Assembly: GCA_002898795.1 (NCBI GenBank)
Contig: BEIG01000006.1
Span: forward strand, 1 to 51,569
Source: a bacterium HR30
GTDB taxonomy: Bacteria > Desulfobacterota > Binatia > HRBIN30
Reading direction: 5' to 3'
DNA length: 51,569 nucleotides
A model generated the notes under the pieces. The model was not told the origin of the DNA. It ran no database searches and worked only from the letters and a program-made list of their open reading frames with translations. Below are positions 40,714 through 49,636 of the stretch, one piece after another (positions within the stretch are counted from its first letter, which is position 1; every line of letters starts with the position of its first letter). A program made the translations under genes and the position numbers.

Positions 40714-41589
40714 ATGCACAACAACGCTGCCGGAACTCAAGAGCCGCCTAGCGGCTTACGTGACCTCGTGGTGGTAGCCTTCGAGAGTCGGCGTGCTGCG
40801 GAGCTTGCCGAAATGATTCGCCGTCACGGTGGGTTGCCGGTCTCCGCTCCAGCGATGCGGGAGGTAGCGCGGGAAAATCGTACCGAACTCTACGATTACG
40901 TGGAGCGGTTGCGAGCAGGGCAGTTCGATGTGGTCCTTCTGCTTACAGGGGTGGGGCTGAGAAACTTGGTGCAGCAAGTCGGAGACAAGTTCGCGCCGCA
41001 GGAGATCGCCGAAGCGTTGCGCTCCGCCACACTGGTAGCACGCGGGCCCAAACCTGTGGCAGCACTTCGGGAACTGGGACTAACCCCCCATTGGGTCGTT
41101 CCGGAGCCGTACACTTGGAGGGAATTGCTCGAGCTGCTCGACCGCCATGTGCCCGTAACGGGCAAAGCGGTTGCAGTGCAGGAATACGGATTACCGAACG
41201 AAGAGCTCCTGGAAGCGCTTGCCCAGCGCGGGGCAAGTGTGCACCGCGTGACGATTTACCAGTGGGACTACCCCGAAAATCTTGCACCGTTGCGCACTGG
41301 GATTCGCACCATTTTGGAAGGCAAGGCGGCCGTGGTTCTCTTCACCAGTGCCAACCAGGTGTACAACGTGTGGGCCTTCGTGGAACGAGAGTTCGAGTCC
41401 GAGTCAGACCTCTGGCGTGCGCGAATGCAAGAGACCGTTGTCGCTTCGGTGGGACCGGTGTGCTCCCAAGCCTTACGGCAACACGGCATTGAGCCCGACT
41501 TGGAAGCATCGCCACCAAAAATGGGCGCCCTCATGCACCTTGTCGCCCAGCAGGCCCGAGCCTGCCTGGAACAAAAACGCCGCAAGTGA
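40714..41589 (+). CDS. hemD: uroporphyrinogen-III synthase
   Basis: HemD cyclises hydroxymethylbilane with ring D inversion to uroporphyrinogen III. The 291-residue product shows the two-domain pattern: LVVVAFESRRAAELAEMIRR, FDVVLLLTGVGLRNLV, ALRSATLVARGPKPVAALRE with LGL, then a second domain AVVLFTSANQVYNVWAFVE and ASVGPVCSQALRQHGIEPD. HemD is poorly conserved, but the T-G-x-G and G-P-x-x-x-x-A-L-R motifs and the position just before hemE make the call firm. hemE follows 87 bases later. Confidence 0.9.
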   Translation: MHNNAAGTQEPPSGLRDLVVVAFESRRAAELAEMIRRHGGLPVSAPAMREVARENRTELYDYVERLRAGQFDVVLLLTGVGLRNLVQQVGDKFAPQEIAEALRSATLVARGPKPVAALRELGLTPHWVVPEPYTWRELLELLDRHVPVTGKAVAVQEYGLPNEELLEALAQRGASVHRVTIYQWDYPENLAPLRTGIRTILEGKAAVVLFTSANQVYNVWAFVEREFESESDLWRARMQETVVASVGPVCSQALRQHGIEPDLEASPPKMGALMHLVAQQARACLEQKRRK

Positions 41590-41676
41590 GCAGCAGCGTG
41601 TAGGAAGGGCGCCTGCCGTGTCGAGGTCAGCCCTCGCTTTACCCCAGTTGTTTTTCTCTCTACACAGCGAGGCACT

Positions 41677-42714
41677 GTGACAGAAGCGCCGTTTCTTGCC
41701 GCTTGCCAGCGCTTACCGGTCAGCCCGACCCCGGTGTGGTTTATGCGTCAAGCCGGACGGTACATGCCCGAGTACCGGCGGGTACGTTCCCGACACGGCT
41801 TTCTTGAACTTTGCCGCTCACCAGATTTAGCCGCGGAAGTCACGGTGACGGCAGTGGAACGACTTGGAGTCGACGCCGCCATTCTGTTTGCGGACATTTT
41901 GTTGCTACTCGAACCGCTTGGCGTGGGACTCGAGTACTCCCGCAACGATGGCCCGGTCATTCACCGGCCGGTACGTGGCCCGGAAGATGTCGAGCGCCTG
42001 CCTCGCATCGATGCCGCAGCAGAGTTGCCGTACGTGTACGAAGCCGTTCGCTTGGCACGGAAAAGCCTGCGGGTACCTCTTATTGGATTTTCCGGAGCCC
42101 CCTTTACGCTGGCATCGTATATCGTGGAGGGCGGAGGCTCCCGCCACTACCTGCACACGAAAACTCTCATGTACCAAGCCCCGCAAGCCTGGCACCAGCT
42201 CATGGCGTTGCTCGTGGACAACGTGATTTCGTACTTGCGACGGCAAATCGAGGCTGGGGCACAAGCCGTGCAAGTTTTCGACAGTTGGGTAGGTTGCCTA
42301 TCGCCACACGACTACCGGCAATTTGTCTTGCCTCACATGAAGCGGCTGTTTCAGGGCCTACCAGCACATGTTCCCACCATCCACTTTGGCACAGGTACCG
42401 CGGGGTTCTTGGAGCTTCTTCGTGATGGCGGAGGCACGGTCATCGGGCTGGACTGGCGTGTAGACCTTGCCGAAGGTTGGCAGCGGGTTGGGTTCGACCG
42501 GGCCATTCAGGGAAACCTCGATCCAGCGGCACTGCTGGCTTCGCGAGACCTTCTTTTCGAACAAGCGCGAACGATTCTGGATCGCGCCGGAGGGCGACCC
42601 GGGCACATTTTCAATTTGGGCCATGGCATCCTGCCGCAGACTTCGGTGGATCAAGTTCGAGCCTTGGTCGACTTTGTTCACGATTACAGCCAGGCGGCCG
42701 GAAAAAACGGGTAG
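41677..42714 (+). CDS. hemE: uroporphyrinogen decarboxylase
   Basis: HemE removes four acetate carboxyls from uroporphyrinogen III to give coproporphyrinogen III. The 345-residue product has the N-terminal signature TPVWFMRQAGRYMPEYRRVR, ILFADILLLLEPLGVGL with the catalytic Asp region, GFSGAPFTLASYIVEGGGS, and the C-terminal GHIFNLGHGILPQT. The GTG start at 41677 fits the homology. It is in the hemD-hemE-hemH-hemG cluster with short gaps (30 bases to hemH). Confidence 0.96.
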   Translation: MTEAPFLAACQRLPVSPTPVWFMRQAGRYMPEYRRVRSRHGFLELCRSPDLAAEVTVTAVERLGVDAAILFADILLLLEPLGVGLEYSRNDGPVIHRPVRGPEDVERLPRIDAAAELPYVYEAVRLARKSLRVPLIGFSGAPFTLASYIVEGGGSRHYLHTKTLMYQAPQAWHQLMALLVDNVISYLRRQIEAGAQAVQVFDSWVGCLSPHDYRQFVLPHMKRLFQGLPAHVPTIHFGTGTAGFLELLRDGGGTVIGLDWRVDLAEGWQRVGFDRAIQGNLDPAALLASRDLLFEQARTILDRAGGRPGHIFNLGHGILPQTSVDQVRALVDFVHDYSQAAGKNG

Positions 42715-42744
42715 CAGTCCAGCAGAAAGACCAGTCTTGGCGCT

Positions 42745-43674
42745 ATGTACGATGCGGTTTTGTTGATTGCGTTCGGCGGCCCTCGGTCGCCCGAGGAAAT
42801 CGACCCGTTTCTTGCACGGGTGGTTCGGGGCCGCAATGTTCCACCAGAACGCGTGGAGGCAGCGCGCCAGAACTACCTGGTCATTGGCGGGCGCTCTCCT
42901 CTTCACGACATCACCTTACGCCAAGCAAAGAGGCTCGAGGCAGAGCTTTGGTTTCGAGGCCAACATTTGCCCGTGTACATTGGCATGCGCAATTGGCACC
43001 CGTTTCTGCACGAAACGCTGGAGCAGATGTGGACCGAAGGGGTAAGGCGGGCCATCGGCATCATCATGTCACCTCAAGAGTCGGAAGCGGGGTGGCATCG
43101 CTACGTGAGCGACGTGGCCGAAGCCCGCGCCGCTGTTGGGGAGCAGGCCCCGGCAATCGACATCTTGCCATGTTGGAACGATCGAGCCGGCTTTCGCGAA
43201 GCAATGGCTTGCCATATCGCCCAAGCGCTAGCGGAGTTCCCCGAACCGGAACGGGCCCGAGTACCCGTTGTGTTTACCGCGCATAGCTTACCGGTAGCCA
43301 TGGCCCGGCAAGCATCTTACGTTCAGCAACTCCAGTCCACCGCTGCCGACATCTGTGCTCGCTTGAAGCACGAACGCTGGGAGTTGGCGTTCCAAAGCCG
43401 CAGTGGTCCGCGGGGAGAGCCTTGGCTCGAGCCTGACATTTCCGATTGTTTGGCTCGTCTGGCCGGCGAAAAGGCCGATGCCGTCGTGGTCGCACCGATC
43501 GGCTTTGTGTGCGATCACGTGGAGGTGCTTTACGATCTCGACGTTGTCGCTCGCAATACCGCCAACCAGAAAGGCATTCGTTTCGTGCGGGCGCGCACTG
43601 TCGGGGAGCATCCAGCGTTTGTCCGTATGCTTGCAGAGTTGGTTCTGGAGCAAGTCCGAAAGCCGCACGTATGA
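42745..43674 (+). CDS. hemH: ferrochelatase (protoporphyrin or coproporphyrin type)
   Basis: HemH inserts Fe2+ into a porphyrin. The 309-residue protein has AVLLIAFGGPRSPEEIDPFL, YIGMRNWHPFLHETLEQM, VVFTAHSLPVAMARQASYV with metal-binding His180, and VVVAPIGFVCDHVEVLYDLD with Glu260. The length and motif match ferrochelatases; the -SLP- and D-H-V-E-V-L-Y-D-L-D motifs are diagnostic. It overlaps hemG by four bases (ATGA). Whether it uses coproporphyrin III, as in the Gram-positive-type pathway, or protoporphyrin IX cannot be told from sequence by eye. Confidence 0.95.
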   Translation: MYDAVLLIAFGGPRSPEEIDPFLARVVRGRNVPPERVEAARQNYLVIGGRSPLHDITLRQAKRLEAELWFRGQHLPVYIGMRNWHPFLHETLEQMWTEGVRRAIGIIMSPQESEAGWHRYVSDVAEARAAVGEQAPAIDILPCWNDRAGFREAMACHIAQALAEFPEPERARVPVVFTAHSLPVAMARQASYVQQLQSTAADICARLKHERWELAFQSRSGPRGEPWLEPDISDCLARLAGEKADAVVVAPIGFVCDHVEVLYDLDVVARNTANQKGIRFVRARTVGEHPAFVRMLAELVLEQVRKPHV

Positions 43675-45164
43675 TTCCTCGCGTTGCCATCGTCGGTGGG
43701 GGAATTTCCGGGCTCGCAGCAGCCTACTGGCTCGTGGCCCGATCGGAGGAAAGCCGCCTTCCGGTGGAAGTTGTCGTCTTAGAAGCCGCGCCCCGAATTG
43801 GGGGTGCCATTACCACCGAAGAACGCGACGGCTTCATTTTGGAGGGTGGTCCAGACTCCTTTCTGACGGAAAAACCGTGGGCCCTCGAACTTGCCCGCCG
43901 CCTGGGCTTGGAGCACCGACTGATTGGTACCAACGAGGCTTATCGCCGCACTTACGTTGCCCGCGGCAATCAACTGTACCCTCTCCCAGAGGGATTCCTG
44001 TTGCTTGCACCTACCAGGCTTTGGCCGTTCGCCACCTCGCCTCTGTTTAGTTGGCGTGGAAAATTCCGTATGGCAGCAGAGATCTTTTTGCCGCGGCGCA
44101 TCCCGCGCGACGACGAGAGCTTGGCTTCCTTTGTCGAGCGTCGCTTTGGTCGCGAAGCCCTAGCGAGAGTGGCGCAACCGCTGGTTGGAGGGATCTACCT
44201 CGCGAACGCACAAAAATTAAGTTTGCGCTCGACGATGCCGCGCTTTCTTACCATGGAAGAGCAGCATCGTAGCATCATCCTCGCGATGCGTGCACAAGCA
44301 CGCGCGGCACGGGCAGCTGGCTCCGGGGCACGTTGGAGTCTCTTTGCATCGTTTGACCGCGGGCTCCAGCTTCTCGTCGACGCACTCGCTGCTCGTCTGG
44401 GTACCGGTCGCGTGCGGTGCTCGACGGAGGTAGTTCGGCTCGAAAAAGCCAAAGCCCATTGGCAGCTTGTCACCAAAGCGGGAGAGGTCCTGTTGGCCGA
44501 TGCGGTGGTTCTCGCTCTTCCGGCTTTTCGAAGCGCAAAGCTCCTCCTGTTGGCTTCGCCGAGCCTGGCGAAGGAACTCGAGCAAATTCCGACGCTTCCC
44601 TCGATGACGGTAAACCTGGCGTACCAGGCTGCCGCCATGCACAGGCAGTTGGCAGGCTTTGGCGTGGTTATTCCTCGCACCGAAGGAATGTTGACCTGGG
44701 CCACCACGTTGAGTCACCTCAAGTATCCGGGCCGAGCTCCTGAAGGCATGCTCCTGATCCGTGCCTTTCTCGGGGGCGAAGACGAAGCTGAGCTTTTGCA
44801 CTGGGATGACGAGCGGCTGGTGCTCACCGTACGCCGCGAAGTGGAACCTCTACTGGGCATCGATCGTGCTCCTGTACTCGTGCGGGTCCATCGCCACCCA
44901 GAGACCATGCCCCTGTACCAGGTCGGCCACTTGCAGCGGGTTCAACGAATCGAAGAACTCGCGCGCACCGAACCCACGCTGGCCTTGGCTGGGAACTCCT
45001 ACTACGGGGTGGGGATTCCCGATTGCATCCGTGTGGGCGAGCAAGCAGCCGAGAAAATCTGGCGTGCTCTGTCGAACAGCCCGTGGAGATCGCCAGCGCG
45101 TTCGGAAACTGGTGACCGACCGACAGCATCGCCAACACCGGTCGACAGCTACCACCGGCGTTGA
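43671..45164 (+). CDS. hemG: protoporphyrinogen/coproporphyrinogen oxidase, HemY type
   Basis: This FAD enzyme oxidises protoporphyrinogen IX or coproporphyrinogen III by removing six electrons with O2. The 497-residue product has the N-terminal Rossmann motif RVAIVGGGISGLAAAYWLV, VVLEAAPRIGGAITTEERDG, FILEGGPDSFLTEKPWALEL, and AGNSYYGVGIPDCIRVGEQA at the C-terminus, which all fit the HemY family, not the unrelated FMN HemG of E. coli. I therefore use the symbol with caution (hemY is a common alternative). ATG 43671 is coupled to the hemH stop. Confidence 0.93.
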   Translation: MIPRVAIVGGGISGLAAAYWLVARSEESRLPVEVVVLEAAPRIGGAITTEERDGFILEGGPDSFLTEKPWALELARRLGLEHRLIGTNEAYRRTYVARGNQLYPLPEGFLLLAPTRLWPFATSPLFSWRGKFRMAAEIFLPRRIPRDDESLASFVERRFGREALARVAQPLVGGIYLANAQKLSLRSTMPRFLTMEEQHRSIILAMRAQARAARAAGSGARWSLFASFDRGLQLLVDALAARLGTGRVRCSTEVVRLEKAKAHWQLVTKAGEVLLADAVVLALPAFRSAKLLLLASPSLAKELEQIPTLPSMTVNLAYQAAAMHRQLAGFGVVIPRTEGMLTWATTLSHLKYPGRAPEGMLLIRAFLGGEDEAELLHWDDERLVLTVRREVEPLLGIDRAPVLVRVHRHPETMPLYQVGHLQRVQRIEELARTEPTLALAGNSYYGVGIPDCIRVGEQAAEKIWRALSNSPWRSPARSETGDRPTASPTPVDSYHRR

Positions 45165-47189: not shown

Positions 47190-49196
47190 TTAAGGAGCGA
47201 TGTAGTATTGGCCCATTAAGATGAACATCTCGTCTTCGGTTGTCACACCACCAGTGAGCGGACAGGCATCGCACAACCCATCCCCAGCTCCCTCGCTGCT
47301 ATCGCACGATGCGTTGCGCTGGCGCTGGTTATTCCCAGAACACGGAGCCCCAACCTTACCCTCGACACAGTGAGTCGGAGTTTGGCACGGGCCCCCCACC
47401 CCAGGAATGGAAACCGGCGGCGAGGGCGACGTGGATTTCCGTTTGACCTCCCGCGGATCGGTAAAACCGTTGTCGTATAGGGCGCAGTAGGTAAACGTGC
47501 GTTCCCTGTCGGAAACAGCATCGTATTTTCGCGGCGGGTCGAAGTTCAGAACAACCGGATCGTTATAGATCAAGCTCACGTAGAGGAGACTCTCGTTCGG
47601 GTCTCTCTCCAGTGGGGCTGGCACCCCCGCTAACACCGAGTTGACCCCACGGAGGATCTCGTCCACGGTGATTTGCTCGTCGTCGTTGACATCGGCATCG
47701 ACGCACTCGCGCACGCGATCCTCTCCCAAAGCAATGCGTACCGCCTTGACCAACTCGCTGACCACAACTTGGCCGTCTTCGTTACAGTCTCCTCCACGTT
47801 GCCGCTTGAATGCCTTGCAGGGGTAACCCTGACATACGTCCGGACTCGAAAAGTCATACCCCAGTGGGCTGCAAGCCTGGCCGTTTGCCGGGCCACCCTG
47901 ACAAGCAAACTCCCCCTCGAACGTGCGCCAACGTTTCATCCGCTTGTGAGCGTGCGAGCTTAGTTCGTAGAGGCGCGCGAATCGGGGAATGGTGTAGTGG
48001 CTACAGACCTCCTTCGTTTGAAAAGCGGGGACTGGAGTCATTTTAAAGATCGTGCGGGTGTCGAAGATCTGCAACGCCGGGGTGACTTGTTCCTCGGGCG
48101 GCGCAAACTCGAAGTTCAGCCAAGCACGTAGGAGGCCAGGTTTGTCCGTCAGGTTAAAAGCGTGCGAGTTCCAGATGACCATGCCGCGAATCGGTACCTC
48201 CCGATACACGCCGGGTGGAAAACGAAACTCAGAGGCCGTTTCCTGGGTGCCGGTAAAGCCCGAGGAAGCCAGCCCCAAGTTCAGGTCGTCGGGTCCGAAG
48301 CCGATGCACGCAATACTGTTGACGGGGGTCGTAGAGCACACGCCCTCGCCGCAAAAATCGAGGTCAGTGGGATCGCACGGCGTGCCTTCCTTATCACCAC
48401 CCCGGCAGGCAAATGCCCCCCACGCGGGATCGTTTGGCGGGGTCCGGCCGGTGTACAAACTCACAATGAGATGATGGCTCAGGGGATCCTGCCGAATCTC
48501 GTTCCGTTTATAGCGAAACGTGTTTCCGCTTGGGCCGCGGAACTCAGGTGGCACCTGATCGCTCACATCGTAGTAACTGACGAAACAGGTTTCTCGCTCG
48601 GAGTGGGGCGCCAACGTGTACGGAGGCATACGGATTTGAACGCCTTGACCTGGGGGAGGCGGATCCAGGGGCTTGATCGCGATGGGTTCCGGGGGTGGCA
48701 AACAAGCATTCAGCAACTCGCCGGTTCCCGCCACCACCCCAGTGCGCGGGGCACCCGCTTCGATCCAGCGGCGGATTGCCTCCACTTCATCCCGACTCAG
48801 CGCCGGCAGTGGATCGAGCGGCATCGGGCGCAAAGGTGCCTGGTACTGCCCCGGCAAGGTCTTGGCTGCCAAGTTCAGAAACAAAAGGCTCAAGTCGCGT
48901 CGGCCAGGCACAACCCGCTTCCAACCTGGCACCGTGGCGGCGGCTACATCGATCAAGGCATCGTAAGAGGCGTCGGCGCGGAGATCTAATCCTCCCGCAC
49001 GGGCCTCTCCGTGACAAACTTGGTTCGTACAACCCTTGTTCTCAAAAACCGCCCGCTGAATTAGCTCGTACGTGCTAGAAAACGTGTTGGAACACTCCTC
49101 CGCACGCACAAGCCTCGCCCCTGTCCCCAGCATCACCGCTCCTACTACCAGGGCGAATAGAGCGCCACCAACTCGAGCGAACACTTGCCTCCGCAT
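47190..49196 (-). CDS. secreted PHM-like copper monooxygenase fused to cytochrome-like and dockerin-like domains
   Basis: The 668-residue protein has a signal peptide (FALVVGAVMLGTGARLVRAE), then a CX4CH motif at Cys56-Cys61-His62 in a Planctomycete/Myxococcus-type cytochrome-like domain (residues 45-150, ending LSRDEVEAIRRWIEAGAP). The next 500 residues carry the ligands of peptidylglycine-hydroxylase-like enzymes in order: HisHis at 241-242 (DPLSHHLIVSLY), His345 (WNSHAFN), His-x-His at 415-417 (SSHAHKR) and DEMFILMGQYY with Met657. Between H-x-H and Met lies a dockerin-like pair of EF-hand loops (residues 469-520, DCNEDGQVVVSEL and DADVNDDEQITVDEI). Many extra Cys suggest disulfides. Substrate unknown; function inferred from ligand pattern. 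ATG 49196 follows AGGAGAGG. Confidence 0.7.
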   Translation of the reverse strand: MRRQVFARVGGALFALVVGAVMLGTGARLVRAEECSNTFSSTYELIQRAVFENKGCTNQVCHGEARAGGLDLRADASYDALIDVAAATVPGWKRVVPGRRDLSLLFLNLAAKTLPGQYQAPLRPMPLDPLPALSRDEVEAIRRWIEAGAPRTGVVAGTGELLNACLPPPEPIAIKPLDPPPPGQGVQIRMPPYTLAPHSERETCFVSYYDVSDQVPPEFRGPSGNTFRYKRNEIRQDPLSHHLIVSLYTGRTPPNDPAWGAFACRGGDKEGTPCDPTDLDFCGEGVCSTTPVNSIACIGFGPDDLNLGLASSGFTGTQETASEFRFPPGVYREVPIRGMVIWNSHAFNLTDKPGLLRAWLNFEFAPPEEQVTPALQIFDTRTIFKMTPVPAFQTKEVCSHYTIPRFARLYELSSHAHKRMKRWRTFEGEFACQGGPANGQACSPLGYDFSSPDVCQGYPCKAFKRQRGGDCNEDGQVVVSELVKAVRIALGEDRVRECVDADVNDDEQITVDEILRGVNSVLAGVPAPLERDPNESLLYVSLIYNDPVVLNFDPPRKYDAVSDRERTFTYCALYDNGFTDPREVKRKSTSPSPPVSIPGVGGPCQTPTHCVEGKVGAPCSGNNQRQRNASCDSSEGAGDGLCDACPLTGGVTTEDEMFILMGQYYIAP

Positions 49197-49636
49197 AGCC
49201 TCTCCTATCCGTGTTCCGGCTGACACACTACAAGGTTAGCTTCTAGTTTCATGACACATGGCTTTCAAACACGGAAGTGCGGGGCGGCTGAAAATCTGGC
49301 ACAGAACGCAGCGGACGGACCTAAACTGTCGAATTTTTTGCGCGAAGGGCGCTGCAGTTCCTCCTCTAAAAAAAGCACCTAGACATGGAACCCTCGGCCA
49401 CCGGGACAGCGCTCCAACTCGTAGTGAACCATCGCACGTTGGGCACACGGCTTTCTGTTCCGGATAACCGCGCTTCTTCCCAAGCATAGCTAACCCCTCG
49501 TGCCGACGCCTTACTTCGGAGCGCGAAGCCTGGATTCGCAAGGTCCGGCAAATACCATGGCCGTGCTCCCGACCGCTGCCTTCCCCCAGCAGCTCGCAAC
49601 CCTCATCTGCCGCGGAGTGCGGCCTCCCCTCCTGGC
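49197..49636. other. intergenic region, no clear gene
   Basis: About 440 bases upstream of the secreted-protein gene hold its ribosome site, the possible promoter above, and short open frames on both strands (for example 49258-49467 plus and 49236-49541 minus) that have no family resemblance. Confidence 0.4.
49240..49268 (-). promoter_or_regulatory. possible sigma-70-type promoter of the secreted monooxygenase-like gene
   Basis: On the minus strand TTGAAA (49268-49263) and TAGAAG (49245-49240) are separated by 17 bases, 43 bases before the ATG. The -35 is one mismatch from consensus and the -10 is poor. This is a motif match only. Confidence 0.25.

Follow-up and report, generated by a model that had tools for sequence, protein, structure and literature searches.

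The copper chemistry of PHM and DBH is known from animals, where it uses ascorbate, and is best known from hormone-making enzymes. A different copper fold is found in lytic polysaccharide monooxygenases. These latter enzymes are reported to receive electrons from dehydrogenases that carry a cytochrome or from c-type cytochromes (PMC5960967, PMC8981238), so that a secreted copper oxygenase is likewise combined with a heme electron source. The ligand set of PHM consists of H107, H108 and H172 for CuH and of H242, H244 and M314 for CuM (PMC6627586 and, for part of the set, PMC6123673). A further point of reference for this study is the type I dockerin (Dockerin_1, PF00404; 5NRM and 6KGE), which is built on two calcium loops of the D/N/D..E pattern.

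In this study, we have examined P0001, a protein encoded in a window of 51,569 nucleotides (the whole stretch of DNA that was analysed) from an uncultured bacterial class, for which the use of C1 compounds and alkanes has been reported (PMC8262859). P0001 resembles PHM and DBH in its fold and copper ligands but differs from them in being bacterial, in sharing only ~12% identity, and in carrying a fused cytochrome domain, three Cys-rich loops and a dockerin; unlike in lytic polysaccharide monooxygenases, furthermore, the heme domain and the copper core are in one chain. In our view, P0001 is most likely a type-II dicopper monooxygenase with the PHM/DBH fold, secreted to the periplasm or the cell surface, which has a built-in c-type cytochrome and docks on cohesins; copper, heme, docking and activity are all inferred, and a probability of about 0.7 is given to this reading. 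In the literature searched (open-access only), neither a bacterial cytochrome-PHM fusion nor a cohesin in Binatota has been reported, and the passages available from the Binatota paper (PMC8262859) do not contain “dockerin,” “cohesin” or “peptidylglycine.” If confirmed, this large and so far unannotated bacterial family, in which heme donor and copper core share a chain, would show how electrons can reach such a dicopper core when ascorbate is not used and would offer a bacterial system for the question of long-range electron transfer between CuH and CuM.

Layout of P0001 and the predicted fold of its copper core

The features of P0001 are summarized in Table 1. While the program listing open reading frames had placed the start of the gene at a GTG, the ATG adopted here is ten codons downstream, and a helix in the model (residues 2-26) is within the proposed signal peptide. 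When P0001 was searched against Pfam and NCBIfam, neither a PHM nor a cytochrome family was matched, and only EF-hand_7 was weakly hit (E 0.25); by sequence annotation alone, therefore, P0001 would remain a hypothetical protein.

Table 1. Positions in the window of the P0001 gene and of the features discussed in the text
Feature	Position	Strand	Basis
Whole gene P0001, 668 aa	47190..49196	(-)	ATG start at 49196, stop 47190-47192
Ribosome-binding-like site AGGAGAGG, directly before the ATG	49199..49206	(-)	Sequence
Signal peptide, residues 1-32 (VRA, then EE)	49101..49196	(-)	By eye
Putative c-type cytochrome domain, residues 34-165	48702..49097	(-)	Domain model and profile/fold matches; related members
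Heme attachment motif CX4CH, residues 56-62	49011..49031	(-)	121/121
Met125, candidate axial heme ligand (inferred)	48822..48824	(-)	122/122
PHM-fold core, first part, residues 173-427	47916..48680	(-)	Foldseek and structure alignment of model
H241-H242, CuH ligands (PHM H107, H108)	48471..48476	(-)	124/124
Cys-rich loop 264-297, between CuH ligands	48306..48407	(-)	Sequence and 124-member alignment
H345, CuH ligand (PHM H172)	48162..48164	(-)	124/124
H415-x-H417, CuM ligands (PHM H242, H244)	47946..47954	(-)	124/124
Cys-rich head of loop insert, residues 428-464	47805..47915	(-)	Alignment and comparison with relatives
Dockerin-like module (EF-hand pair), residues 468-528	47613..47795	(-)	Sequence, fold match, relatives
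Calcium loop 1, residues 470-481	47754..47789	(-)	Loop alignment
Calcium loop 2, residues 502-513	47658..47693	(-)	Loop alignment
PHM-fold core, last part, residues 533-668	47193..47600	(-)	Model and structure alignment
Cys-rich loop 604-645	47262..47387	(-)	Sequence and 124-member alignment
M657, CuM ligand (PHM M314)	47226..47228	(-)	122/122

The earlier note on this DNA had proposed a PHM-like copper core and named superposition of a predicted structure on its animal counterparts as a check. An AlphaFold2 model of P0001, which was built from 43 aligned family members with no templates (pLDDT 89.3, pTM 0.82), agrees with that proposal: in a Foldseek search of the PDB, human DBH and rat PHM took all of the top 21 places. 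Using VIA-align, residues 174-668 of the model were aligned with residues 45-325 of the chain of rat PHM (1PHM, 5WJA) at Z 16.2 (rmsd 3.4, 265 residues aligned) and with DBH (4ZEL) at Z 14.6, in both cases over the whole core (residues 173-668), and the first unrelated row was PNGase F at Z 7.5. The model thus has the double jelly-roll fold of PHM. The six ligands occur in the same order as in PHM, and their positions along the chain also correspond; namely, H345 and H415 are separated by 70 residues as are H172 and H242 in PHM, and in both proteins the Met ligand stands 11 residues short of the C-terminal limit of the alignment (M657 and 668 in P0001, M314 and 325 in PHM). Distances among the ligands in the model were, nonetheless, not measured.

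Profiles of the sequence hardly reach this kinship. P0001 is below the Pfam cut-offs of PF03712 and other family models, and of 43 relatives, PF03712 picks up no more than 3, with a lowest E of 0.0071. Two of our profiles (A1 and A4) hit nothing in the PDB at E up to 10, and the profile of a divergent set (A5) met PHM only at an insignificant E of 1.5-1.9, with HH and DEMC aligned; the DDEMC of the relatives was there set against SDEMC of PHM (E 1.5, not significant). Because these links are weak or not significant, the assignment rests on fold and ligands, and on the predicted model, the core of P0001 is a relative of PHM beyond the reach of sequence profiles. Among 297 genomes of the phylum searched with PF03712, a single match over the cut-off was found in a genome of the same class (G021). 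The protein concerned, L116 (L116:1477-2436), is a stand-alone PHM-like protein without a cytochrome and has His where the CuM Met is expected; the five His of P0001 align with it, and a search with the sequence of L116 alone returned only unrelated matches and no PHM.

Conservation was examined by collecting the 185 frames that matched our profile of the core; 179 of them had the full core, and 124 were unique, the incomplete and duplicate ones being left out. This set takes in the deeply diverged L121, L141 and L147, and its gapped alignment rows are short sequences. Each of the five His ligands is present in 124 of 124 members and M657 in 122, with two gaps. Residues H241, H242, H345, H415, H417 and M657 were correctly numbered and ordered in the earlier note, its CX4CH corresponds to C56-X4-C61-H62, and the loss of ligands in relatives, which would have refuted it, was not observed in any sequence of the set extending that far. 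Its reading of the architecture is supported, and the three-part order that it had described, cytochrome, copper core and dockerin, needs qualification. A cytochrome domain precedes the core in 124/124 members, while the dockerin is optional (43/124) and confined to one taxonomic order; as judged from sequence, the family in general consists of two parts, cytochrome and PHM, and the third part has been added in that order alone.

Several members deserve mention on their own. Three Cys-rich loops of P0001 (264-297, 432-460 and 604-645) were not mentioned in the earlier note. In the divergent L120 and L121, the cytochrome and a PHM core with DDEMC are followed by a C-terminal PD40/TolB-like propeller; another divergent frame outside the set of 124 (L146:12923-15025) has the same motifs by eye. 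One member (L131:7947-11354, in G012) is split into two frames ~1.2 kb apart, which cover profile positions 11-296 and 300-655; an insertion or an error of assembly may lie behind this.

The insert between the CuM ligands and its candidate cohesin partners

The dockerin-like module lies between the CuM ligands H417 and M657, and all 43 copies with it belong to the taxonomic order of the window, where it is carried by 8/9, 1/2 and 34/40 members of families f1, f3 and f4, respectively, and by 0/2 of f2. None of the 71 relatives from families outside this order has the module; in 50 of these 71, the HxH strand is followed by a turn of ~4 residues, and the same site holds 105-109 residues in the dockerin-bearing copies. 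On this alignment, the cytochrome-PHM family is apparently the wider one, to which the dockerin was added at the level of this order.

The calcium loops are duplicated as in type I dockerins, with D1 in 42/43 and E/D12 in 43/43 copies in both loops. The fold was also matched (model residues 463-526, Z 6.0-6.2 over 59 residues), albeit in the middling range, and P0001 is below the Pfam cut-off of Dockerin_1 (PF00404), which matched 6 of the 43 relatives. The sequence hence supports the dockerin reading already given in the earlier note, for which the fold is weaker evidence. Unlike type I dockerin, the module of P0001 is inside a loop of the enzyme and not terminal, its first loop carries a Cys residue (C471, 43/43), and no cellulosome setting was seen.

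Five copies from the same order (L101, L171, L172, L173 and L174) have an insert of only 39-43 residues without dockerin, and the three that were read (L101, L171 and L172) are rich in Cys. In our tree, the five short-insert copies split off immediately beneath the main dockerin clade, and the insert might therefore have grown in two steps; the hairpin of the CuM domain would then have been extended in the order of the window, first by a four-Cys mini-module and then by a calcium-dependent dockerin. In this quick tree, 41 of the 43 dockerin copies form one clade (SH-aLRT 90), and the other two, L164 and L165, are among insert-free copies. A single origin of all 43 inserts was disfavoured in the same tree (p-AU 0.0124), and whether L164 and L165 gained the insert a second time or by recombination remains open.

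Since a dockerin implies a partner, cohesins were searched with PF00963. The own genome has four matches over the Pfam cut-off, three of which are in one protein, L234, and the fourth in a cohesin-linker-dockerin protein, L236. L234 (L234:2172-4598, contig C93; 808 aa) looks like a scaffoldin; in addition to its triple cohesins, it has a Pro/Thr-rich linker and a signal that, read by eye, is lipoprotein-like. L236 (L236:4428-6935, contig C8) has a cohesin-like N-terminus, a very long Pro/Thr/Ser linker and a C-terminal dockerin, and about 47 dockerin-like modules were counted in all. In the class, cohesins are found in 20/148 genomes, namely 14/15 of the order of the window versus 6/133 elsewhere (Fisher p 4e-14, although the genomes within an order cannot count as independent samples), and dockerins (PF00404) in 41/148, namely 15/15 versus 26/133. 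Six of six copies in G014 have the insert, and no cohesin match was found in that genome. The link between cohesins and the insert is a correlation at the level of lineages.

Instead of docking, the insert might act as a calcium-stabilised spacer or as a disulfide-rich decoration of the loop, and we regard this explanation as a serious one that is only somewhat short of an even chance. Indeed, many different proteins of the own genome contain modules similar to the dockerin (45 other places, by module-only matches), 22 of the 26 dockerin-bearing genomes outside the order have no cohesins, and a genome with 7 cohesin matches (G007) has the insert in 0 of its 2 copies. These observations are to be weighed against the presence of four cohesins in the own genome, three of them in the lipoprotein-like L234 with its linker, and against the concentration of cohesins in the very order that bears the insert. 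As a docking module, the dockerin would plug the enzyme into cohesins such as those of L234, apparently a lipid-anchored protein; docking is inferred, and because insert and cohesins occur together in these genomes, the idea of a docked redox enzyme is open to direct test.

Proposed copper chemistry and the putative cytochrome domain

By analogy with PHM, CuM (H415, H417 and M657) would be the site of O2 activation, the second electron would come from CuH (H241, H242 and H345), and the substrate, which has not been identified, would be hydroxylated. A covalent heme, attached at C56/C61-H62 and probably with M125 as an axial ligand, would re-reduce CuH and hence take over the job that ascorbate has in animals. 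All of these steps are inferred, as is any oxidase or monooxygenase activity of P0001. A peptide with a C-terminal glycine is probably not the substrate, because other residues occupy the places of R240, N316 and Y318, which in PHM presumably bind the peptide carboxylate; mapped by offset only, the family has mostly S/T/N, I/L/V and L/I/F/M there.

The copper sites might also be real without serving a monooxygenase, for example in copper binding, storage, electron transfer or a peroxidase-like reaction with H2O2. No activity has been shown, the expansion of the family (at least 18 matches in one genome) could suit a role in binding, and the PHM-like L116, which is without a cytochrome, has His in place of the Met; we nonetheless consider this explanation unlikely, given that no member extending to these positions has lost any of the six ligands, Met among them, and that a cytochrome attached in 124/124 members suits an enzyme in need of electrons.

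The evidence for heme is of several kinds. A c-type heme is usually attached through CXXCH, not CX4CH. In the members reaching the motif, the CX4CH spacing is kept in 121/121 (C56, C61 and H62 in 121 of 124, with three gaps), M125 is present in 122 of 124 with two gaps, and W144 in 124/124. The profile of the domain met FoxE (E 0.17) and hydrazine synthase alpha (E 0.77) only weakly, with CH and the WIxxGA region coinciding and MP found also in FoxE. A related domain in L124 matches PSCyt1 (E 0.00098) and part of the SO2930 diheme cytochrome model (E 2.1e-7), and that of L083 matches PSCyt1 (E 0.0003), all below the curated cut-offs. The CH, MP and WIxxGA motifs of P0001 align with cytochromes of the PSCyt1, SO2930, hydrazine-synthase-alpha and FoxE kinds, from which P0001 differs in its CX4CH and in the weakness of its own matches. 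Cytochrome c assembly proteins (PF01578) gave three matches in each of 7/7 genomes tested, including the own genome. Because CX4CH is kept, related domains match cytochrome profiles, and assembly genes are present, heme on this domain is likely, though not shown. The cytochrome-like domain claimed in the earlier note is supported by its motif, by a Met that is conserved and by profile matches, which are weak or cover only part of a model.

Modelled alone, the domain reached pLDDT 92.7. Its best structural match was hydrazine synthase alpha (residues 664-797), with a middling Z of 7.0 and 24% identity over 104 residues, while cytochromes c gave Z 2.4 and 2.1; this realignment included only 7 chains, and other cytochromes are not excluded. 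Foldseek returned a single match for the domain (E 7.8).

It could be argued that the domain is a degenerate cytochrome fold without heme, having a structural or substrate-binding role, as the motif is not CXXCH, the profile and fold matches are weak, and the pLDDT of the full model is low around the motif (77 for residues 51-60 and 57 for residues 61-70). This is quite improbable in our view, since such an alternative has to face the fixed spacing of C56, C61 and H62 (121/121) together with M125 (122/122) and W144 (124/124), the matches of related CX4CH domains to PSCyt1 (L124 and L083, just under the cut-off) and to part of the SO2930 model (L124), and the presence of Ccm genes. A frame artefact is ruled out by a full-length paralogue with 62% identity to P0001 in the own genome, and a chance assembly of the motifs by the conservation of ligands and heme motif in 124 relatives.

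Neighbourhood and distribution

No conserved operon was found over 75 loci. Beside an isocitrate dehydrogenase gene, the window contains hemD, hemE, ferrochelatase and a protoporphyrinogen-oxidase-like gene (40714-45164); these adjoining genes of heme biosynthesis were rejected as a meaningful context of P0001, as their order is common only to three loci of the same genus. Genes for quinoprotein-type propellers are present in 5 of the 75 loci. At one of the loci (L129:7380-15677), three consecutive cytochrome-PHM genes are followed, ~50 bases on, by the gene of a PQQ-type dehydrogenase that also bears this CX4CH domain. This pairing may recall, by analogy, the dehydrogenase-fed copper oxygenases of fungi and is too rare to carry an argument. 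It is conceivable, albeit doubtful, that Binatia-type bacteria present dicopper oxygenases fed by heme on a non-cellulosomal surface assembly based on cohesins, in some cases next to quinoprotein alcohol dehydrogenases (the CX4CH domain is shared by one of these); the dehydrogenase would then oxidise the alcohol made by the oxygenase, and the electrons would return through the matching cytochromes.

The core profile matches 42 of the 148 genomes of the class, and the close relatives that have names are MAGs of Candidatus Binatia. At least 18 matches were found in one genome (G039; 17 candidates scored), which, if these proteins are oxygenases, would point to an unexplored oxidative capacity in this uncultured class. 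A plasmid search gave no match to P0001, and one with L121 gave only matches to the propeller half or one weak match. With a profile of the whole protein, 8 of 395 genomes of the phylum were hit, one of which (G122) was matched via the cytochrome alone. The stand-alone CX4CH cytochrome in G122 (L083:1492-1959), which is elsewhere in the phylum, is lipoprotein-like and adjoins a protein containing CXXCH.
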